In this document: piece by piece, positions 1-7,304 of the stretch | How the letters are laid out: every line of letters begins with the position of its first letter | Position numbering within the stretch: the stretch's first letter is position 1 | NCBI GenBank assembly: GCA_017443065.1 | Contig: JAFSPF010000015.1 | Span: 1 to 53,782 of the forward strand | Origin: Lachnospiraceae bacterium | GTDB taxonomy: Bacteria; Bacillota; Clostridia; Lachnospirales; Lachnospiraceae | Direction: 5' to 3' | DNA length: 53,782 bases | Position numbers and translations under genes: made by a program | The notes under the pieces: model-generated | What the model was told of the DNA's origin: nothing | What the model saw: the letters and a program-made list of their open reading frames with translations, nothing else | The model's database searches: none

Positions 1-202
1 CTTCATAACTATATTCCGTTCCAGACTCGTATTCAGTGACAAGTGTGCCATCTTCTAAACTATACGAATTAGGTGTATCGGAAGTGGATACGCCATTATT
101 ATGCACATTACCAGATGATGTCACAGAATTATTTGTTGAAGCACATGCCATAAAAATCAACAACATAGGCAACAACGTAAGTATTGTAAGACTTTTTTTC
201 AT
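1..202 (-). CDS. Putative lipoprotein, N-terminal part only (runs off the window)
   Basis: The gene starts at ATG 202 after a GGAGG site (about 207-213) and stays open to the left edge, so only 67 residues are visible. The N-terminus is MKKSLTILTLL, a hydrophobic stretch, then FMAC, which fits a lipoprotein signal peptide with the lipidated Cys at about residue 20. The mature part is rich in Ser, Thr and Asn, as in surface linkers, and nothing in it identifies a function. It is divergent from the XRE regulator at 322 and appears to share an operator with it. Position -3 of the lipobox is Phe, which is slightly unusual. It could be element cargo or part of the neighbouring accessory DNA. Confidence 0.7.
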   Translation of the reverse strand, partial: MKKSLTILTLLPMLLIFMACASTNNSVTSSGNVHNNGVSTSDTPNSYSLEDGTLVTEYESGTEYSYE

Positions 203-230
203 ATATCACCTCCGCATAAGATATAGCACC

Positions 231-286
231 ATTATAATACGGTGCAATCTATTGCACAAGATAAATTGCATCTTATAATTTGCACC
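231..286. promoter_or_regulatory. Divergent promoters with a shared palindromic operator
   Basis: Rightward promoter: TTGCAC (252-257), 16-bp spacer, TATAAT (274-279), for the XRE gene. Leftward promoter: TTGTGC (complement of 254-259), 17-bp spacer, TATAAT (complement of 231-236), for the lipoprotein. The perfect inverted repeat GTGCAAT-CT-ATTGCAC (242-257) covers both -35 boxes. A related TTGCACC lies at 280-286. The layout suggests that the XRE protein represses itself and the lipoprotein from one site; this is inferred, not shown. Confidence 0.55.
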
Positions 287-321
287 ACATCTTCATATAC
301 TGTGTAGAAGGGGGATGATTT

Positions 322-558
322 GTGGTCTACGGTAAAATCAAGATAAATCTTAATGAACAGTTAGCGAAGACCGGCTTATCAAAGAATAAGTTCTGTCAGC
401 GTGCAGAAATGCAAAGAACCCAGTTAAACAAATACCTTAATAACGAAGTAGCGCTACTTGACAAAGATGTCTTAGGCCGGATTTGTACTGTTTTAGATTG
501 TTCTATCAATGATATTCTTGAATTCGTTCCGCCCGATGCCAAAAAAAGGCATGAATAA
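322..558 (+). CDS. XRE-family (Cro/C1-type) transcriptional regulator
   Basis: A 78-residue protein that is almost entirely a Cro/C1-type helix-turn-helix domain. The helices around LAKTGLSKNKFCQRAEMQRTQLNKYLN and the tail CTVLDCSINDILEFVP match small clostridial regulators of this family. GTG 322 is chosen as start because GAAGGGGGA lies about 8 bases upstream and no in-frame ATG serves better. It is divergent from the lipoprotein gene, and the palindrome at 242-257 in their shared promoter is a plausible binding site. It probably acts as a repressor. It ends 29 bases before the integrase stop codon and is convergent with it. Confidence 0.8.
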   Translation: MVYGKIKINLNEQLAKTGLSKNKFCQRAEMQRTQLNKYLNNEVALLDKDVLGRICTVLDCSINDILEFVPPDAKKRHE

Positions 559-587
559 TCTGATTACTATGATATTCTTCCTGTATT

Positions 588-1916
588 CTATGCCTGCCTT
601 CTTATAAGTGCAGCTTCAAGCGCGTCGGATGCAGCCCTATCGCGTTCTTCAAAACTATGTGCATATATGGATAGTGTCACTGACGCATTATGATGTCCCA
701 GACGCTTTGCCACAGCCGTCGCTTCCATGCCCTGCGCAATCAGAATAGACGCATTTGTATGACGCAACTGGTGAAACGTGATAATTGGCAATTTATCAGC
801 GTCATTCTTGCACGTCTTATTGTATGCCCTGATAATCCGCTGTAATTCAGCGCGTGGTGTTGACGGATACATATGTTCCCCATTATCCTGTACGAAACAG
901 AAACACTTTTCTATATCGCGGCTACCGACCCATGCGCTGCCCATTTTCATTATCATCTTTTGGTGTTCGCGTTTTAGCTGCCGCAACACATCCATACATG
1001 ACTGCGGCAGAAATATTTTTCGGTATCCCGATGCTGATTTTGGCGACTTGATTTCAAAAACTCCGTCGCCAAGATAGACACACGCCTTATTTATATCTAT
1101 CGAATGTTCATTAAAATCTATATCTCGCCATTGCAGACCAAAGATTTCTTCTTTGCGCATACCGCTGAAAATCGTTACCACAAACATTGCCTTGTATTTC
1201 AACGAAACAGAAAAAGAGCCTTGCGTGTATTCCTTTCGCAAGACTTCTTTACCGTGACGGATTACAATGCGTTCAGGAATTATGATCGGTATTGGGTTTT
1301 CTAAAAGGTCAAGAAATCGATTTGCCTGGTCAAGATCAAAACTCTTTATTACCGGCTTATCTTCTGTCTTATTCTGACGCATACGGACAGTACACGGATT
1401 ATTGGGAATGATATTATCGCGCACAGCATCCGACAGCACGGTGGAAAGCACCTTCTTTGCAGTCTGCACAGTTCTTTCACTATATGCGCCTTTACGATAG
1501 CCATAGTCATAACCACTGGTTCTAAGATCGTCAAGAAAATCCTGTACCGTCGATACACGAATATTTGACAGTTTCAGATGACCTAAACGCGGCAGGATGA
1601 TCTTTTCAAGGTTGTTCAGATAATTGCTATATGTGGTCTTTTCAAGCGTCTTTGCAAAGGACGAAAGCCTTTTTTCTGTATATTCCTGCAATGTGATCTT
1701 TTCGGCTACGATCTGACCTGATTTGCATTTATCTTCAAAATCCATTGCAAAGCGATCTAAATCGTTTTTGTTTTGACGTGCCGACTTCTTATTATCGTGC
1801 TTGAATGTTGCATACTTCAAAATCTGTTTACCGTCTTTTCCGCGTCCGCACGAAACCGTAATAGTATAACTGATAACCCGTCCTTGTTTATTCTTGTTTT
1901 CCCTTATGCTTGCCAT
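588..1916 (-). CDS. Tyrosine recombinase (integrase), full length
   Basis: A 442-residue integrase that should insert and excise the element by strand exchange at the attachment sites. The N-terminal part (about 1-70) looks like the AP2-like arm-binding domain of Tn916/phage integrases, followed by a SAM-like core-binding domain (about 75-180) and the catalytic domain. The catalytic set is complete: Arg254 in SGMRKEE, Lys293 in the beta hairpin, His382 and Arg385 in HQLRHT, His408 in LGHHN and nucleophile Tyr418 in SIYAH. AGGAGG lies 8 bases before ATG 1916. It is the last gene of the leftward operon, 26 bases after a second, shorter recombinase. It lies about 5 kb from the tRNA junction, so it is probably nearer the unseen end of the element. 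Confidence 0.93.
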   Translation of the reverse strand: MASIRENKNKQGRVISYTITVSCGRGKDGKQILKYATFKHDNKKSARQNKNDLDRFAMDFEDKCKSGQIVAEKITLQEYTEKRLSSFAKTLEKTTYSNYLNNLEKIILPRLGHLKLSNIRVSTVQDFLDDLRTSGYDYGYRKGAYSERTVQTAKKVLSTVLSDAVRDNIIPNNPCTVRMRQNKTEDKPVIKSFDLDQANRFLDLLENPIPIIIPERIVIRHGKEVLRKEYTQGSFSVSLKYKAMFVVTIFSGMRKEEIFGLQWRDIDFNEHSIDINKACVYLGDGVFEIKSPKSASGYRKIFLPQSCMDVLRQLKREHQKMIMKMGSAWVGSRDIEKCFCFVQDNGEHMYPSTPRAELQRIIRAYNKTCKNDADKLPIITFHQLRHTNASILIAQGMEATAVAKRLGHHNASVTLSIYAHSFEERDRAASDALEAALIRRQA

Positions 1917-1942
1917 GACATCGCCCTCCTTTCAGCGTGGGA

Positions 1943-2494
1943 TCATAGATAGAAGTCTTCCATTGACTTGTCCTTTTCATCATCTGTAATGCCGATATAG
2001 CGAAGCGTGATTGACGGTGCGGAATGGTTGAAAATATCTTGCAGCATAGCCACATCATGATACTTCTTATAGTGATGATATCCAAAAGTCTTCCGCATCG
2101 TATGTGTGCCGACTTCATCAAGGTTAAGACTGTGCCCTTCTTCATTCAAAATACGATATGCCTGTATTCTTGAAATTGGTTTGTTTTTGCCCTTTCTGCT
2201 TTGTATTAGATACTCGTCAGCCGAAAGACCACTGGAAGCAATATAGGCGTTCAATTCTTTCTGAAGTGACGAATTAAGAAGAAATCTTTTGTTCTTCCCT
2301 GTCTTTTTTTCCTTGACCGTAATATGATCTTTACCTTGCACATCACCAACTTTCAAATTCAGTACATCAGAGACACGCAATCCGCTATTGATTCCAAGTG
2401 AAAACATGATAGCGTATTTTTCACCCCGTGCCCGTAGCAGCGTCTTCATTTTCGTGATCTTCTTTGGGTCACGGATAGGCTGTACTGTTTTCAT
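1943..2494 (-). CDS. Short tyrosine recombinase, catalytic domain only
   Basis: A 183-residue protein with only the catalytic half of a tyrosine recombinase. Residues present are Arg40 (SGLRVSD), a Lys near 64, His131 and Arg134 (HTMRKT), His157 (FNHSAPS) and Tyr166 (RYIGIT), so it looks active. There is no obvious arm-binding or core-binding domain; residues 1-20 are too short for one. An AAAGGGG site precedes ATG 2494. Short XerC/D-like recombinases of this kind occur in Firmicutes phages and islands, where they may invert DNA, resolve multimers or assist the main integrase. Its role beside a complete integrase is unknown. Its upstream region holds two pairs of inverted repeats (2546-2586 and 2654-2680). 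Confidence 0.88.
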   Translation of the reverse strand: MKTVQPIRDPKKITKMKTLLRARGEKYAIMFSLGINSGLRVSDVLNLKVGDVQGKDHITVKEKKTGKNKRFLLNSSLQKELNAYIASSGLSADEYLIQSRKGKNKPISRIQAYRILNEEGHSLNLDEVGTHTMRKTFGYHHYKKYHDVAMLQDIFNHSAPSITLRYIGITDDEKDKSMEDFYL

Positions 2495-2545
2495 GTGATA
2501 CCCCTTTCAGCACAGATTTTTGTGGCATTTTACATTATATCATAG

Positions 2546-2586
2546 AATGTAACATAATACAATATATGATTATATTATGTTACATT
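2546..2586. repeat. 13-bp inverted repeat upstream of the short recombinase
   Basis: AATGTAACATAAT (2546-2558) and its exact complement ATTATGTTACATT (2574-2586) flank a 15-bp AT-rich centre. The same half-site occurs again at 2654. The position between the excisionase-like gene and the recombinase suggests a protein-binding site, either an operator or a recombinase/Xis arm site. Confidence 0.7.
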
Positions 2587-2653
2587 AAATACGGCGCATA
2601 TATTATCATAATCACCGAAAGCCTTGATATAACTGACTTCCACGGCTTTTTAC

Positions 2654-2680
2654 AATGTAACATAATGTCTATTATGTTAC
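2654..2680. repeat. Second copy of the same inverted repeat, short spacer
   Basis: AATGTAACATAAT (2654-2666), the spacer GTCT, then ATTATGTTAC (2671-2680) form a 10-bp perfect palindrome with a 4-base centre. The half-sites match those at 2546-2586, so four copies of one motif lie in about 135 bases. The 250-bp gap between genes (2495-2744) holds nothing else I can identify. Confidence 0.7.
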
Positions 2681-2744
2681 GTTCGGCATGATGGAAGAAC
2701 CACTGTTTCGGCGCGTAGGACGCGATCTAAGGGCGTTTTGATCT

Positions 2745-2960
2745 TCAGGCGGTGGTTTTTATGCTTTCCTGCTGTTTTGCGTCCAAATACGCTTCCAGAC
2801 GTTCCAGATTGACAAGATATTTTGAACCGCAGCGGATATAATATATTTCATTCTTCAAGACCAACTGACGGATATAATATGCCGCAAGTCCGGTTCTATT
2901 TGCGGTTTCCTTGATCGTCAACATGGTAGGGATTGTAAAATCATCTATTTTTCTTTCCAT
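2745..2960 (-). CDS. Excisionase-like DNA-binding protein (MerR/HTH_17 type)
   Basis: A 71-residue protein. The core (TMLTIKETANRTGLAAYYIRQLVLKNEIYYIRCGSKYLV, read in two pieces) has the helix-turn-helix plus wing of Tn916 Xis-like excisionases. These small proteins bend attachment-site DNA and direct the integrase towards excision. AAAGGGG lies 6 bases before ATG 2960. It sits upstream of both recombinase genes in the same direction, the usual xis-int order, but with a 250-bp gap that holds inverted repeats. It is distinct in sequence from the second excisionase-like protein at 6007-6183, which stands first in the operon. Confidence 0.82.
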   Translation of the reverse strand: MERKIDDFTIPTMLTIKETANRTGLAAYYIRQLVLKNEIYYIRCGSKYLVNLERLEAYLDAKQQESIKTTA

Positions 2961-2984
2961 AACTATCCCCTTTCATATGGGCGT

Positions 2985-3103
2985 CTTGTAAAACAAGTCA
3001 CACCGTACCGAAAAAGTTTGTTCTTGTAAGCAATCGAATATACTACGGAGGCGTTAATTATGTCTGAACACAACTTTTTTTGATGCCAATGGTACGGTGT
3101 GAC
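2985..3103. repeat. Long imperfect inverted repeat (large stem-loop)
   Basis: GTCACACCGTACC (2997-3009) and GGTACGGTGTGAC (3091-3103) are perfect 13-bp complements. The pairing continues inward imperfectly between AAAAAGTTTGTTC (3011-3023) and GAACACAACTTTTT (about 3066-3079). A smaller palindrome, CTTGT-AAA-ACAAG (2985-2997), abuts the left arm. Within the loop, a GGAGG site (3047-3051) precedes a seven-codon frame at 3060-3083 (MSEHNFF). The structure lies between the last unknown gene and xis. A nicking or replication origin, a packaging site or an attenuator are all possible. Confidence 0.7.
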
Positions 3104-3113
3104 GTGCTTTCTA

Positions 3114-3854
3114 TCATGCCGCGCTTTGTGTAGCCTGTGCGCTGTCTGTTTTGTTTTCTGTCTTTAATGTCACATCATCAAAACTATGTTTCGCACTTTC
3201 GGGCGTCCGCTTTAACTTAAAATCTGACAGTTCTATACCCCCACCAATAACATCAAGTAGTTTCCCTGTAAGGCGTTCATCTGTAAAGTGTTCAATTTCA
3301 AGCGGTTCAAGTAAAACGAGGTCATGGTTTCTAATTTTGTCAGCAATCGCAATAGCACTATCAGCAAACTTTTTATATACTTCTACACGTTCGCGTGGTG
3401 ATGTTATTTTTATATCGTCATACTTTCCGCGCATGGTCATTCTGTTTGACTGCTTCGCGGCTTCCGCTTCATGCTGTCTATCAATCCACGCTTTGATGTA
3501 CTGTAACATAGTGGGGTTATACGGCTTTTCATAGCGTTCTACAAAGGCGCGTACCGTATTGACAGACATTTCAATCCCGCTTTCAAAAATCTGCCTGTCC
3601 GCTGTCAACATTCCCACATCAGGGAAAGACGCAATAGAAATCAGCTCACGCACATTTTGGTATATCTTTGTAATAAGATTCACGGCATTATGGTATTCCT
3701 GTTCCTGTTGTGCCTGTATTTCCCTGTTCGCTTCTTCCGCATATTCTTGTGTAAAGCGTTCATTATTTGCGTCAATCTGTTTTTGTAGTTCTAATTCCTT
3801 TACACGATAGTTCTTCAAAACATCTTTGAATTGTCCGACATAAATGTTAGCCAT
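3114..3854 (-). CDS. Unknown element protein, mostly helical, 246 residues
   Basis: I do not recognise this protein. ATG 3854 is chosen because GAAAGGTGG lies 8 bases upstream; the GTG codon 12 bases earlier falls inside that ribosome site. The first 60 residues (KDVLKNYRVKELELQKQIDA and on) are charged and helical, likely a coiled coil. There is a Gln/Glu-rich stretch near 50-60, a central helical part, and a polar tail ending in DSAQATQSAA. There is no signal peptide or membrane segment and Cys appears absent. It is the downstream member of a run of small unknown genes after the HUH and HTH genes. A structural, scaffold-like or DNA-associated role is conceivable but unsupported. Confidence 0.8.
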   Translation of the reverse strand: MANIYVGQFKDVLKNYRVKELELQKQIDANNERFTQEYAEEANREIQAQQEQEYHNAVNLITKIYQNVRELISIASFPDVGMLTADRQIFESGIEMSVNTVRAFVERYEKPYNPTMLQYIKAWIDRQHEAEAAKQSNRMTMRGKYDDIKITSPRERVEVYKKFADSAIAIADKIRNHDLVLLEPLEIEHFTDERLTGKLLDVIGGGIELSDFKLKRTPESAKHSFDDVTLKTENKTDSAQATQSAA

Positions 3855-3874
3855 AATTTTTACCACCTTTCTTT

Positions 3875-4099
3875 TTAATCAAGCCCTATGTACTGTTTTG
3901 GATCTCGTTTCTGTTTGTTCTGTAATGCCTTTATAATGCTTTTTGGTACATTCTTTATCACGGTCAATAGTTGCTTTTTCCCCTTTCCGTCACGTCCCCA
4001 GTCTAAATATATTTCCACGGTTTCATCTCCGTTTTGCTTTTCCTGTGCGGCGCGTAACTTTTTTACTTCCTGCTGTGCCTTTTGCAATAGTGCGTTCAT
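3875..4099 (-). CDS. Small unknown element protein, 74 residues
   Basis: AGGGGGT lies 5 bases before ATG 4099. The N-terminal 25 residues form a likely amphipathic helix or coiled coil (LLQKAQQEVKKLRAAQEKQN). They are followed by a short beta-type segment (VEIYLDWGRDGKGKKQLLTV) and a basic tail ending KRDPKQYIGLD. It lies 20 bases upstream of the 246-residue gene and 48 bases after the HTH gene, so it is probably co-transcribed. No family is recognised. The basic charge hints at nucleic-acid binding, but that is only a guess. Confidence 0.75.
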   Translation of the reverse strand: MNALLQKAQQEVKKLRAAQEKQNGDETVEIYLDWGRDGKGKKQLLTVIKNVPKSIIKALQNKQKRDPKQYIGLD

Positions 4100-4147
4100 G
4101 TCTTACCCCCTACTTGAAAAGTTGTGGTTGTTTGTGCTTTTTTATAT

Positions 4148-4507
4148 CTATGCGGCTTCCTGTAAAGACGCTTTCCACGCTTCAATATCTTTCATAAGGT
4201 CTTTTGCAATGCCATATTCTTGACTCATGCGTATTATTTCCGCGGCTGCTTTCAAACGTATATAGGAATTATCATCATCCAGTAGGTTTACCAATGTTAT
4301 GACAGCCTTTTGCGTATGTGCTGTTAGGTCTGTAAGTACACCATCTAAAACACGTTTACGGTAATCAGAAAGCATAGACTGAAAAGCGTCTGTATTTATG
4401 CGCTTGCATATCTGTGCTTTTGTCATAGACAACTCTTTTGCTATCTGCGTTTGTGTCTTTCCTGTCAGACATAGTGCAAGTAAAGTTTTATCGTCAACTT
4501 TTGCCAT
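4148..4507 (-). CDS. HTH protein resembling phage terminase small subunit (phBC6A51-like)
   Basis: A 119-residue protein. The N-terminal helix-turn-helix (LALCLTGKTQTQIAKELSM with TKAQICKRIN) is followed by a helical domain (LTAHTQKAVITLVNLLDDD, then SYIRLKAAAEIIRM). This HTH plus AVxxLxxLLxDxxxxxRLKAAxxII arrangement is typical of phBC6A51-type proteins, related to terminase small subunits. Such proteins recognise packaging sites in phages, and a lone small subunit is a hallmark of phage satellites. No large terminase is in view. The family also occurs in mobilizable islands with unclear roles, so the packaging function is inferred. AAGGCGGTG precedes ATG 4507. It lies 12 bases after the 93-residue gene. 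Confidence 0.65.
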   Translation of the reverse strand: MAKVDDKTLLALCLTGKTQTQIAKELSMTKAQICKRINTDAFQSMLSDYRKRVLDGVLTDLTAHTQKAVITLVNLLDDDNSYIRLKAAAEIIRMSQEYGIAKDLMKDIEAWKASLQEAA

Positions 4508-4519
4508 AATGTCACCGCC

Positions 4520-4801
4520 TTATAGGTCTGTTGTTTCTGTCAAGTATTCCACTTGTAGCCCTGTAAAATCATCCTGTAAACGGTCAATAATATCATCAGC
4601 GTTTTTCTTGGAAAACTTCATGTGTCGCGTTGTGACTGTTTCGCTTTGCGTTCTGCTAAAGATCAAAACCGTTGCGCTGTCCTTTTCGCTTTCAAACACT
4701 ACCACCTTAAACGGTACGCGCTTGTATAGCGCACAGGTCATTATAAACTGGTTATAGCAGAGTGCATCATATTTCATTTTTTCAATCTGTCTGTATGTCA
4801 T
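4520..4801 (-). CDS. Small unknown element protein, 93 residues
   Basis: Not recognised. AGGTG lies 5 bases before ATG 4801, overlapping the stop region of the small membrane peptide upstream, so the two are probably translated together. The sequence alternates helix (MTYRQIEKMKYDALCYNQF) and strand-like segments (KVVVFESEKDSATVLIFSRT) with a C-terminal acidic helix (NADDIIDRLQDDFTGLQVEYL), which suggests a compact alpha/beta fold. No signal peptide or membrane segment. It sits between the membrane peptide and the terminase-small-subunit-like gene. Confidence 0.75.
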   Translation of the reverse strand: MTYRQIEKMKYDALCYNQFIMTCALYKRVPFKVVVFESEKDSATVLIFSRTQSETVTTRHMKFSKKNADDIIDRLQDDFTGLQVEYLTETTDL

Positions 4802-4805
4802 GCTA

Positions 4806-4943
4806 TCACCTACAAATGCAAATCAGCGCGCCTATAATCGTTATGCCCCACGCGGCGGCAGTAGCGAAAAACGCTGTGCGCCACCATATCAAAACCGCTT
4901 TTTCTTCTTTCAAAATTTCTGTTGCTAAATTTTCGTTTTTCAT
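4806..4943 (-). CDS. Small single-pass membrane protein, 45 residues
   Basis: An AGGAG site (about 4951-4955) lies 8 bases before ATG 4943; an in-frame ATG two codons upstream is too close to that site. The product has a charged N-terminus (MKNENLATEILKEEKAVLIW) and one hydrophobic helix from about residue 18 to 42, ending ICICR. The stop codon lies 4 bases before the next gene's ATG, so it fits the operon. A longer 65-codon frame overlaps it (4810-5007), but that one has no ribosome site and reads as highly charged noise. The function is unknown; holin-like or regulatory membrane peptides of this size are common in mobile elements. Confidence 0.6.
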   Translation of the reverse strand: MKNENLATEILKEEKAVLIWWRTAFFATAAAWGITIIGALICICR

Positions 4944-5111
4944 AATCATGTCTCCTGTCTATATCAATATTTCTGTTATCTGGTTCTATGGTTCGTTTAA
5001 CATACAAGTATGTTATGTTACTACACTTTTACAGCCGCTATAATTGTGCTTAAACACAGCGTTTATATGGGTTTGTCGTTTCCGCGTTTAGGAAAAAATG
5101 TAAATAAAACC
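4944..5111. other. 168-bp gap with a short palindrome
   Basis: This gap follows the HUH gene. It has a small palindrome, ACATAC-AA-GTATGT (about 5000-5013), upstream of the membrane-peptide gene. It may hold an internal promoter or operator. I see no coding region or strong terminator in it. Confidence 0.4.
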
Positions 5112-5699
5112 CTATGCAAAATTCAGCAAATCCTCGTCAGCAATAAAGTCATTCAAATCACCGCCAAACGTATAATATGGGTTGCTTTGCCATTCAACAT
5201 ATAAAGGACTTATACTATGCTGTGAACGGACGCAATCCTTAAACGGTTTCCATTGCTTCTTCCTTCGCGCAAGGTTTTTATATATGCGTTCTGCTTCAGA
5301 TCGGGCTTTATTTCCCATAATTGCAAAATGAACATGGGGTTGCCGTTTGTATGCTGGCATAGCATTAAAAACCTTCTTCGGTCTGCCCCCCTTTTCCCCT
5401 GTAATATATGTGTATGGCGTCCACCGCTTATGGCAACTAAAACCCAACAGCGCAAGCAATGTATTATCATGGTTCATTTGTATATGTCTGTAACAGTCCA
5501 TATATAAACGATTGAATAAACGGATTGCCTGTTCCTCTGACATTTTGGGAAATTCAAAGCGGTACATAGTTGTATTTAGACTGACGGATTTTTTTTCTTC
5601 GTCCGTTACCGTCTTAAAATCAAGACCGCTATTTTTTTCACGCGCAATTCTGCGTTCTTCCGCTTGCATTTGGTTCATTTCTTTTAAGGAAAAAAACAC
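5112..5699 (-). CDS. Putative HUH-type nuclease (Rep/relaxase-like)
   Basis: A 195-residue protein. RQPHVHFAIMG holds His122-Val-His124 in the His-hydrophobic-His pattern that binds metal in HUH endonucleases. Tyr140 in AERIYKNLARRKK, 16 residues on, is a candidate nucleophile followed by basic residues, as in single-Tyr rolling-circle initiators. The strand LNTTMYRFEFP (40-51) could be motif 1. No helicase domain is attached. The start is GTG 5699, with GAGGGG 8 bases upstream inside the end of the previous gene. If real, it would nick a specific site to start rolling-circle replication or mobilisation of the excised element. IS200-type transposase is less likely because the spacing and length do not fit. 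The assignment rests on a short motif. Confidence 0.5.
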   Translation of the reverse strand: MFFSLKEMNQMQAEERRIAREKNSGLDFKTVTDEEKKSVSLNTTMYRFEFPKMSEEQAIRLFNRLYMDCYRHIQMNHDNTLLALLGFSCHKRWTPYTYITGEKGGRPKKVFNAMPAYKRQPHVHFAIMGNKARSEAERIYKNLARRKKQWKPFKDCVRSQHSISPLYVEWQSNPYYTFGGDLNDFIADEDLLNFA

Positions 5700-5704
5700 G
5701 TCTT

Positions 5705-5941
5705 TTACCCCTCACTAACAGCAAAACAGTATTCTTTTGTTACACGTTCTATAACGCCTTTTTGTTCCTGTTTTGTAAGGTTGTGCATAGTAAGATAAAA
5801 AGAACCGTCAAAACCCAGCACAGCAAATTTATAACCGCTTTTTATAATTTCTCTTTGGCTATATTCTGCGGCTTCCTTTTCTGCCTGTGTATATCCTAAT
5901 AGCGGCACAATAGGAATTTTGTTCTTTGAAACTATATCCAT
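5705..5941 (-). CDS. Small unknown element protein, 78 residues
   Basis: AAAGGAA lies about 6 bases before ATG 5941. The sequence has a helical middle (TQAEKEAAEYSQREIIKSGY) and a strand-rich part (KFAVLGFDGSFYLTMHNL), with a final helix around TKQEQKGVIERV. No known domain is recognised. Its last codons contain the ribosome site of the HUH gene, which begins 5 bases after its stop, so the two are tightly coupled. A partner or accessory role for the HUH protein is a reasonable guess from this coupling only. Confidence 0.75.
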   Translation of the reverse strand: MDIVSKNKIPIVPLLGYTQAEKEAAEYSQREIIKSGYKFAVLGFDGSFYLTMHNLTKQEQKGVIERVTKEYCFAVSEG

Positions 5942-6006
5942 GTTATATTCCTTTCCGATAGTTCATCTATCACCAAATCACCAAAACTATTTATCAATCA
6001 GGAATA

Positions 6007-6183
6007 TTATTCATGTGCATTTTGTAACCATAAAATGAATTGATCACGGCTGATCAAGACTTTCCGGCCAGCATTAATATGCGGTATTGCGTTAGACTTT
6101 ATAAGCCTTCTTATGCTGTGTTCTTTTAATGGGCAAAAGTCCTGCTTTACCAGTTCACGAATTGTATAATATGCTTTATCCAT
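6007..6183 (-). CDS. AlpA/excisionase-like HTH protein, 58 residues
   Basis: First gene of the leftward operon. GGAGGTGG lies 3-6 bases before ATG 6183. The 58-residue product (AYYTIRELVKQDFCPLKEHS, IRRLIKSNAIPHINAGRKVLI, SRDQFILWL) matches the short HTH_17/AlpA fold: a DNA-binding helix pair followed by a wing with IPHINAGRKVLISR. Such proteins act as excisionases or as activators of the excision operon. It faces the XRE-like regulator gene across 116 bp of operator-like repeats, so it is likely the first gene released when that repressor is removed. The element thus encodes two excisionase-type proteins. Confidence 0.75.
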   Translation of the reverse strand: MDKAYYTIRELVKQDFCPLKEHSIRRLIKSNAIPHINAGRKVLISRDQFILWLQNAHE

Positions 6184-6299
6184 CACCCACCTCCAAAAGT
6201 GCTGTTCTTTTGAGTTTTTTACGTTTCCTGTTGTAAAGTATAGTATATTTTAGTATAATATTAGTATATTGTATAAAACTATTGAAAGGGGTTTTAGCC
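6184..6299. promoter_or_regulatory. Divergent control region with phased AGTATA repeats
   Basis: AGTATA occurs at 6242, 6252 and 6263, spaced 10 and 11 bases, so the copies lie on one face of the helix. A rightward promoter TTGTAA (6231-6236), 17-bp spacer, TATAAT (6254-6259) overlaps them. On the other strand several TATACT boxes could serve the leftward operon. This fits a lysogeny-type switch in which the divergent regulator binds the repeats. Confidence 0.5.
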
Positions 6300-7022
6300 A
6301 TGAAAAGTATATCAAATATACACCTTAAAGATTTTGATATTGACGGTGCAGACGGATTTAAGGCGCGACTTGGTAGAAAAATTAGAGAAGCCTTTGGAAC
6401 ATATCAAAACCTTAACCTTGCTCTACAACAACTTGATGCAACAGAAAAATCATATGAAAAAGCACCCGACCACTTAAGCGCAATCAAAGCATGGTGCAGT
6501 TCTTCAAGACAGACCATGCCACCCATAAAAATCTTATATGATTTATGTCAACTGATACGTGATAAAGGGGTTGATTGTGATATAGATTATCTATGTGGGA
6601 ATTATGATGAAAGTAATCACACAATAAAGTTTATCCGGGAAGAAACGGGGCTAACGGAAAAAACAATTAAAATCTTACGTGATGCTGAACCTATCCCCAA
6701 AAAGAAAAACGCTTTGTTTGAAACTCCACCAGTAAAAAAACTTGGATACACCGTGTCTTGGCTTTTAGAAGATCACGAAAATGGATTGCCGCTGCTACAG
6801 TCAATCGCAGATTATCTATTTGCGGAAAAAGCAGATGAAAGCCAGTTCATTGTGCAAATTCAGTCTGATCTAATCAGTCTAAAGGGTAGCACAAAAATAA
6901 AAGAACTTCGTGCAATTATTGACGATCTTACACAAGAAAACGCACGGTTGAAGATGGAAATATCACAATCAACGCAGAAGCAGAAATATTCTACAAACAA
7001 GCGTACAAACAGGTTAAAATAA
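6300..7022 (+). CDS. Divergent XRE-like regulator with C-terminal coiled coil
   Basis: A 240-residue protein from ATG 6300, with GAAAGGGG 8 bases upstream; TTG 6282 also opens the frame but has no site. Residues about 20-105 look like a divergent Cro/C1-type domain: LGRKIREAFG, then SAIKAWCSS, then PIKILYDLCQLI and DIDYLCGNYD resemble the helix pattern ending in 'dyLlg'. A middle segment (TIKFIREETGLTEKTIKILR) may be a second helical module. The C-terminus (about 205-235) is a predicted coiled coil, LRAIIDDLTQENARLKMEI, probably for dimerisation. It is divergent from the excision/replication operon, as Stl- or CI-type repressors are. It is probably the master repressor of the element, but the family is not firmly recognised. 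Confidence 0.65.
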   Translation: MKSISNIHLKDFDIDGADGFKARLGRKIREAFGTYQNLNLALQQLDATEKSYEKAPDHLSAIKAWCSSSRQTMPPIKILYDLCQLIRDKGVDCDIDYLCGNYDESNHTIKFIREETGLTEKTIKILRDAEPIPKKKNALFETPPVKKLGYTVSWLLEDHENGLPLLQSIADYLFAEKADESQFIVQIQSDLISLKGSTKIKELRAIIDDLTQENARLKMEISQSTQKQKYSTNKRTNRLK

Positions 7023-7125
7023 ACGGTTTTCTTTGAATTGTTAGATTTTTGTTAGACTAAACAACCGCGCATGTCAATTTATCGTTACCATATGTTTGTT
7101 TTATCGTATATTAAAAACAAAGAAA

Positions 7126-7163
7126 AAGCCGTAAACCATTGATTTTTACAAGGTTTCCGGCTT
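7126..7163. terminator. Bidirectional rho-independent terminator
   Basis: The stem AAGCCGTAAACC (7126-7137) pairs with GGTTTCCGGCTT (7152-7163) with one mismatch. On the minus strand it is followed by TTTTTCTTTG, on the plus strand by TTCTTCTTC. It would end both the regulator transcript from the left and the mutS-like/tRNA-Ala transcript from the right. Confidence 0.75.
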
Positions 7164-7176
7164 CTTCTTCACTTCG

Positions 7177-7249
7177 TGGAGACGGTGGGACTTGAACCCA
7201 TGACCCCCACACTGCCAGTGTGGTGCTCTCCCAGCTGAGCTACGCCCCC
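7177..7249 (-). tRNA. tRNA-Ala (anticodon GGC), element attachment site
   Basis: A 73-nt cloverleaf without encoded CCA. The acceptor stem GGGGGCG/CGTCTCC includes the G3-U70 pair that identifies tRNA-Ala. The anticodon arm is CCACA-CTGGCAG-TGTGG with GGC at 34-36. The T loop TTCAAGT is standard. The outermost T-stem pair, A49-C65, is mismatched. The mobile element begins directly at the 3' end (left side), so the 3' part is probably supplied by the element's attachment site. The gene is transcribed leftward, downstream of the mutS-like gene, and read into the terminator at 7126-7163. Confidence 0.93.
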
Positions 7250-7304
7250 GTTGTGCCGCAACAAAGATCATAACACAACTTTTGCAGGAAGTCCATATCT
7301 TAAC

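Follow-up and report, generated by a model that had tools for sequence, protein, structure and literature searches.

The left end of a 53,782-nucleotide stretch of DNA from a Lachnospiraceae bacterium (contig C106, JAFSPF010000015.1, of the 144-contig draft genome GCA_017443065.1; hereafter the window) raises the question how a small island beside a tRNA gene is propagated when it combines an HUH-type protein with a protein resembling the small subunit of phage terminases (TerS), and when neither phage structural nor conjugation genes are recognised in it. The island proved to be a genuine small integrative element that is apparently complete and recurs in other genomes. It belongs to a family with a core of four genes (HUH, TerS and two further proteins, S and P250) and exchangeable recombinases, which on balance probably lives as a phage satellite. 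Most of the satellites studied stem from cocci, enterobacteria and vibrios.

Ends of the element and its insertion site

A preliminary description had placed a compact tRNA-Ala island with HUH-type and terminase-like genes at the left end of the window, starting at its first base. The island as such was borne out: its genes are as described, GC content is 0.39 in the first 7.2 kb versus 0.57 in the remaining window, and a tRNA-Ala(GGC) gene (7176–7249, minus strand) is the integration target, left intact. The assigned start was wrong. Extension to the left in search of a repeat of the tRNA-Ala 3′ end, a check proposed in the same description, led to contig C60 (locus L005) of the same draft genome, which holds the missing part of the island and an exact 47-bp copy that puts the left end about 0.66 kb further out. 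The two attachment (att) repeats, attR (7173–7219) and attL (C60:631–677), are identical, and their sequence occurs once per contig. When positions 7001–7300 of the window were searched against the own genome, the stretch at C60:631–677 was, besides the query itself, the single perfect 47-bp match; two lesser matches (77–80 % over 61–65 bp) concern the tRNA stretch.

The first 19 nucleotides of the window equal the last 19 nucleotides of the C60 minus strand, and the reading frame of a lipoprotein gene split between the contigs runs on across this overlap. The distance from attL to attR amounts to 7,830 bp, corresponding to an element of about 7.83 kb. A 19-nucleotide overlap alone is weak evidence and a draft assembly no proof, but the join is strong, because overlap, reading frame, att repeat, clustered end repeats and synteny with a relative come together.

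Beyond attL lie host genes for a D-Ala-D-Ala carboxypeptidase (PF00768, 5.3e-37), a CAP-domain protein and a sodium:solute symporter (both named by eye) as well as leuS (leucyl-tRNA synthetase editing domain, 1.4e-65), and the window carries a MutS-like gene (MutS_V, 5.5e-27). In the congener G054, a relative of this MutS-like gene, tRNA-Ala(GGC) and leuS (by eye) are found in direct succession, an order without insert that represents an empty site of the same neighbourhood. As a synteny marker dacA failed, with no tRNA in the 29 relatives' loci read. The MutS-like gene was the better marker; yet tRNA-Ala stood beside it in only one of six loci scanned for tRNAs, and this tRNA was not found within the stretches read of G113, the nearest genome by this gene.

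The hexamer GTTAGA occurs six times in 7.9 kb of the element, about as often as expected (shuffled mean, 4.8). Five of these copies, all in the same orientation, are located within 320 bp adjoining both att repeats, two on the element side of attR (7036–7060) and three on that of attL on C60, placed as arm-type integrase sites would be. Terminator-like hairpins were noted by eye after the tRNA on both att sides (window 7114–7175 and L005:678–713), and the element therefore seems to bring along a new terminator plus the tRNA 3′ end. An Rfam match to mir-2943 beside the tRNA (E 0.2, below the family cut-off) was taken as chance.

Four elements with a common core

Counted from the tRNA inward, a divergent regulator gene (plus strand) is followed on the minus strand by genes for an AlpA/Xis-like protein, a protein of 78 amino acids (aa), the HUH-type protein, a possible 47-aa peptide, protein Z, TerS, S and P250, and behind these for an excisionase-like protein, the short tyrosine recombinase and the tyrosine integrase; a Cro-type regulator gene (plus strand) and the lipoprotein gene complete the order. 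The core genes, all on the minus strand, encode the HUH-type protein (5112–5699), TerS (119 aa; 4148–4507), S (74 aa, following TerS; 3875–4099) and P250 (3114–3866).

Three sister elements were reached, exclusively via P250 and TerS searches. The P250 query retrieved a relative (6.7e-27) in the congener G032 (apparently the Butyrivibrio metagenome-assembled genome (MAG) RGIG9253), in which an element of about 7.0 kb (L010) is inserted intergenically between 19-bp repeats, adjoining a nagB-like gene (PF01182). Its gene order reads regulator, helix-turn-helix (HTH) protein, 108-aa protein, HUH, 123-aa protein, Z, TerS, S, P250, excisionase-like protein, serine resolvase and tyrosine integrase, the serine resolvase standing where the window has the short tyrosine recombinase. 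The TerS pair led to an element of about 6.1 kb in an uncultured Lachnospiraceae MAG (L012). Here rtcB is interrupted (its left part matches PF01139, 6.7e-42), both recombinases are of the serine type (a resolvase and a large integrase), and neither a regulator nor an HTH gene could be recognised in the list of open reading frames (ORFs). The fourth element (G551, about 5.7 kb) interrupts a ZIP gene, one part of which matches PF02535 (1e-13), and possesses an HTH_17 protein (3.4e-6) 5′ of HUH as well as small and large serine recombinases (by eye) directed away from the core genes. For the latter two elements, similar inverted half-sites recognised by eye served to place the ends and hence to estimate the sizes.

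Thus, four elements with the same core, in the same order (HUH, TerS, S, P250), occupy different sites (tRNA-Ala, an intergenic site with a 19-bp repeat, rtcB and the ZIP gene), and an HTH gene leads the core in three of them. Integrases were exchanged between members (tyrosine or large serine type), and second recombinases likewise. Across the six element pairs, identities range from 55 to 79 % for TerS, 32 to 60 % for P250, 18 to 70 % for HUH and 21 to 42 % for S, with TerS being the most alike core protein in every pair. The window proteins share 59–63 % (TerS), 33–50 % (P250) and 21–30 % identity (S, compared with the same-place protein) with those of the three sisters; the S protein of L010 was found by profile (E 1.3e-4). 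The small genes of the HUH–TerS interval vary: Z (93 aa; 4520–4801, minus strand) is shared by the window and L010 only (43 % identity, blastp 1.2e-25), with no match below 0.05 in L012 or G551, and another small family (23–38 % identity) comprises proteins of L010 (123 aa), L012 (102 aa) and G551 (100 aa). A protein of about 100 aa in this interval was rejected as core gene, since two separate families are involved, and the core was cut to the four genes named.

The elements are rare. The TerS pair profile matched two of 397 genomes at family level at 1e-5, the second being a weak match in a different element, and the P250 pair profile matched one of 397; the single P250 query matched two of 79 congeners, and TerS was found in two of 61 genomes in the genus of L012 and in one of 391 in the class at 1e-8, each of these sets including one match to an already known genome. 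Searches of the open-licence PMC literature brought up no account of the family. The earlier suspicion of a possibly undescribed family is well in line with four elements that share a core and differ in target sites and recombinases.

Evidence for the mode of life

Likeness to phage satellites is supported by TerS. In all four elements its best PHROG is phrog_2538 (terminase small subunit), with E-values of 1.5e-7 for the window protein and of 9.6e-7, 3.7e-9 and 1.9e-7 for the others. The whole profile built from the four proteins was run against 472 ORFs of seven loci, namely three streptococcal satellites (Javan147, Javan343 and Javan479), the phage fragment MT837364, the integrated element L015, a Nostoc plasmid and the host's own prophage L096; ranks 1–6 were taken by the TerS-like proteins of the first six loci (1.7e-13 to 4e-7). 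Since the N-terminal part of TerS is a helix-turn-helix common to many proteins, the profile was split into halves. The C-terminal half alone recovered the proteins of the Nostoc plasmid (2.3e-6), Javan147 (3.8e-6), the gut phage fragment (3.7e-5), Javan479 (1.2e-4) and Javan343 (9.4e-4), and gave no better than 0.26 for the L015 protein. With the HTH half, only the Nostoc protein was found (4.3e-5), L015 scoring 0.05 and the satellite TerS-like proteins above 1 or not at all. As the loci had been chosen by TerS similarity, the E-values come from a biased set, and the comparison of the two halves is the informative part. In a tblastn search of 50,697 phage records, TerS of L012 matched six records, all of them Streptococcus satellite phages (2e-3 to 4e-2).

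Three of the loci compared deserve a brief description. The TerS-like gene of the 22-kb Nostoc plasmid pNPM9 (L020; 5914–6339, phrog_2538 at 9e-9) is located near a bifunctional primase/polymerase, and the plasmid is possibly a phage-plasmid or satellite. MT837364.1 (L007; 1–7033) is an unannotated 7-kb human-gut phage fragment with DnaB-like, TerS-like and long tape-measure-like genes, among which neither capsid nor large terminase was recognised (all by eye). L015 (G177:C63; 4853–9473) is a different integrated element adjoining an rpsI-like gene and ended by the contig edge; a tyrosine integrase, a RepA-like helicase, an HTH protein and the TerS-like protein were discerned by eye.

Among the scanned proteins of the element, on both contigs, none was recognised as a capsid, tail, portal, large terminase, primase or secretion protein, and the window protein scans gave no match with E < 0.1 to capsid, tail or portal proteins. 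For the 47-aa peptide these scans took in Pfam and PADLOC only, and for the lipoprotein only its C60 part, against Pfam. The lipoprotein is also the sole frame of at least 60 aa wholly inside the C60 part, in which structural or secretion genes were not found. A coiled-coil match of the divergent regulator to a scaffolding family (E 0.47) was taken as chance. With the whole element read on both contigs, no capsid, tail or type IV secretion gene emerged, and the preliminary description was right in reporting no visible phage or conjugation machinery and a gene set unlike a standard prophage or integrative and conjugative element (ICE). The element is att-flanked and lacks recognised structural genes of its own, as is the case in phage satellites. 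The TerS-like protein is, by homology only, its candidate gene for redirecting packaging; a pac or cos site was not identified.

The HUH assignment is that of a candidate rolling-circle initiator or relaxase, based on H-x-H (HVH, HTH, HIH, HIH) and Y-x-x-[KRW]-Q motifs in all four elements together with a structure comparison and a low-confidence structure model, for which Foldseek returned no match at 1e-3. L010 has threonine as middle residue of H-x-H, and the tyrosine of the window protein is one residue off register. None of the Pfam or NCBIfam relaxase families matches the HUH proteins scanned, and that of the window has no match at all in Pfam, NCBIfam or PHROGs. Single-protein searches retrieved no relative from the genome-contig collection, IMG/VR, plasmids or phages, and a search of 99 relatives gave the own genome only; the latter missed the HUH protein of G032 (about 20 % identical), although this genome was included. 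Two phage matches (E 3e-2, mycobacteriophage tail gene) were taken as chance.

Beside the separate integrase (442 aa; 588–1916, minus strand; PF00589 1.7e-21, phrog_1 2.6e-59) the window encodes the short tyrosine recombinase (183 aa; 1943–2494, minus strand; PF00589 2.5e-20, phrog_216 7.1e-58), and all three sisters have a small serine resolvase beside their integrase (Resolvase domain in L010 and L012; G551 by eye). Repeats are found 5′ of the second recombinase gene in the window, in L012 and, as a related pair, in L010 (by eye). Those of the window form a palindromic cluster, AATGTAACATAAT / ATTATGTTACATT (2545–2684; inverted repeats I1, I3, I6 and I7), proposed as resolution or operator site. 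Accordingly placed and sized, the small recombinase of either type may form a multimer-resolution unit.

Joined together, these parts suggest the following life cycle. The divergent regulator would hold the operon off until an inducer, probably a helper phage, lifts repression. Integrase and excisionase would then release the circle at the tRNA, for which the att repeats, the clustered end repeats and the relative's empty site are observed, while a junction of the excised form was not seen. Judged from its motifs, the HUH protein would nick an origin and start rolling-circle replication, and the second recombinase would resolve multimers at the repeated sites 5′ of its own gene. In view of its homology, TerS, perhaps assisted by S and P250, could mark the DNA for the large terminase and capsid of the helper.

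Satellite, passenger or plasmid

Several types of known elements resemble the family in part. Gram-positive phage-inducible chromosomal islands (PICIs) such as SaPI and EfCIV583 are likewise small and att-flanked, with own integrase and excisionase, a divergent regulator, an own replication gene, sometimes TerS, and no structural genes recognised. According to the accessible part of PMC6092414, they carry int and the regulator in one direction and xis, pri and rep in the other, followed by interference genes and sometimes terS. In contrast, the integrase gene of the present element is not next to the divergent regulator but at the opposite end, pointing the same way as the core operon, an HUH-type protein is present and no primase-type pri/rep was recognised (Pfam and PHROGs, window proteins scanned), and a second recombinase is added while the integrase type is exchanged between members. 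On account of the far-end integrase, the lack of a recognised primase and the second recombinase, the element is not filed as a PICI. The streptococcal satellites (8.2–11.4 kb) share size, integrase, regulator and a TerS-like protein related beyond the HTH; Javan343, unlike the element, carries an annotated primase, the family HUH profile yields at best E 0.6 in these satellites, and P250 and S are not significantly related. The minimal satellites of Vibrionaceae (phage-inducible chromosomal minimalist islands, PICMI) have a similarly very reduced gene content in a different host group, a likeness by description (accessible part of PMC10803314). The family's sizes of 5.7–7.8 kb are near the 6–18 kb typical of satellites in the accessible part of PMC11389934. 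The same text takes terminase genes or cos/pac sites as suggestive of phage mobilisation and relaxases plus oriT as suggestive of conjugation; the element has a candidate for each, TerS and HUH, respectively.

HUH enzymes include relaxases, and the HUH protein is explained equally well by conjugative-passenger and satellite readings. The element might accordingly be an integrative mobilizable element (IME), its HUH protein being a relaxase that nicks an oriT, its circle moved by a resident ICE or plasmid and its TerS-like protein an accessory DNA-binding protein. This appears rather unlikely, even though the family is absent from the IMG/VR scans and IMEs with a Rep-Trans-family relaxase, which share integrase and rolling-circle-type enzyme with the element, are known in streptococci (accessible part of PMC7563843). 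Unlike these, the element carries TerS and its scanned HUH proteins match no relaxase family, a diverged relaxase being possible; moreover, no core protein is better conserved than TerS, which is akin to satellite proteins beyond its HTH. Of the original placement close to phage satellites or mobilizable elements, the former part gained support from the TerS family and its streptococcal satellite relatives, and the latter retains a low probability. An integrating plasmid-like replicon without dedicated helper, replicated by HUH, freed of multimers by its recombinase and spread by transformation or generalised transduction, would fit the resolvase-type second recombinases with repeats 5′ of them and the TerS-like relative on the Nostoc plasmid. 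It is considered improbable: each of the four elements retains TerS, S and P250, for which such a life has no obvious need, and the family scans brought no recognisable partition gene to light. That the element is what is left of a degraded prophage or ICE, as its small size and lone terminase-like gene might suggest, is disfavoured to the point of being hardly credible: none of the 12 window genes checked has an internal stop, and ends as well as gene order are repeated across four elements (5.7–7.8 kb) that differ in their recombinases.

Life as a phage satellite accounts for TerS as the best conserved core protein and needs no structural genes, and it is the preferred reading. Several results speak against it. 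In the 50,697 phage records, TerS of the window matched only the fragment MT837364 (4e-2), and TerS of L010 and G551 matched none. Outside the family, TerS is most closely related to the cyanobacterial (Nostoc) plasmid protein (6e-6), which is matched by both profile halves and, being closer than the satellites, indicates that the TerS family is not confined to them. No phage protein proved significantly related to P250 in sequence, and HUH initiators and resolvases are plasmid-like traits. The window HUH is only 18–25 % identical to those of the sisters, which share 46–70 % with each other. No family member was detected in any of eight IMG/VR virome scans, which used short exact peptide patterns. 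A prophage-like region of the host (L096; G000:C70:24000–41605) encodes a portal protein (PF04860, 3.1e-51) and a large terminase (PF03354), and none of its proteins was found at E 1 or better with the TerS and P250 profiles (best E of the whole TerS profile, 4.7), nor did the 17.6 kb compared share a DNA word longer than 14 nucleotides with the element. As one portal family only was used in the prophage search, other prophages may exist in the genome. The divergence of the window HUH stands beside even TerS identities across the elements, and the HUH gene may have been exchanged.

More tentatively, the four elements may represent a new satellite family of Lachnospiraceae, in which a plasmid-type replicon, with a rolling-circle initiator belonging to an unnamed HUH family and an own multimer-resolution recombinase, is joined to a phage-packaging gene while integrases are freely swapped. 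If true, satellites relying on an HUH-type protein and not on primase-type replication would add to the known modes of DNA copying prior to packaging. The four-member family provides HUH, TerS, S and P250 as search key.

The P250 model is all-helical (pLDDT 75.9). Foldseek found nothing in the PDB at 1e-3; against viral models, three uncharacterised phage or unnamed proteins ranked on top (probability 0.95–1.00, E 0.06–0.1), which is a lead only. A P250-like nature of the TerS neighbour in MT837364 was not upheld (hhalign probability 1.5 %, E 0.33), the TerS likeness of this fragment being unaffected, and the presence of P250 in streptococcal satellites was not supported by comparison. The S protein had been likened by eye to the post-TerS protein of phages and satellites; the profile test was negative.

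Of the remaining genes, the operon's first (6007–6186, minus strand) encodes the AlpA/Xis-like HTH protein (PF12728 7.1e-7; TIGR01764 1.6e-5, below cut-off), and the divergent regulator (246 aa; 6282–7022, plus strand) is 43 % identical to that of L010, which has a weak HTH_26 match (0.004, below cut-off). The 78-aa protein (5705–5941, minus strand) matches no family in Pfam, PADLOC or PHROGs; PADLOC gave no match for any of the ten proteins scanned. The 47-aa product (4806–4949, minus strand), an open frame only and without Pfam match, is a candidate membrane peptide. Two genes were added to or completed in the earlier gene list, which otherwise proved accurate: the omitted small Cro/C1-type regulator (HTH_26; 322–558, plus strand; PF13443 2.1e-15) and the contig-split lipoprotein gene, a cargo gene with its 5′ part at 1–202 (minus strand), its remainder on L005:1–489 and a lipobox recognised by eye; the 162-aa part on C60 gave no Pfam match above cut-off (best E 0.0055).

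The excisionase-like HTH protein (71 aa; 2745–2960, minus strand) matches TIGR01764 above cut-off (3.1e-9). Among the compared intergenic stretches of three elements, no 8–12-mer was common that could serve as origin or pac motif. In the gap between the excisionase-like and P250 genes, a 20-nucleotide inverted repeat (90 %; spacing, 81 nucleotides) is located at 2990–3110; no counterpart is listed at that place in L010, L012 has different repeats there, and the repeat is a possible candidate for an origin, packaging or regulatory site.

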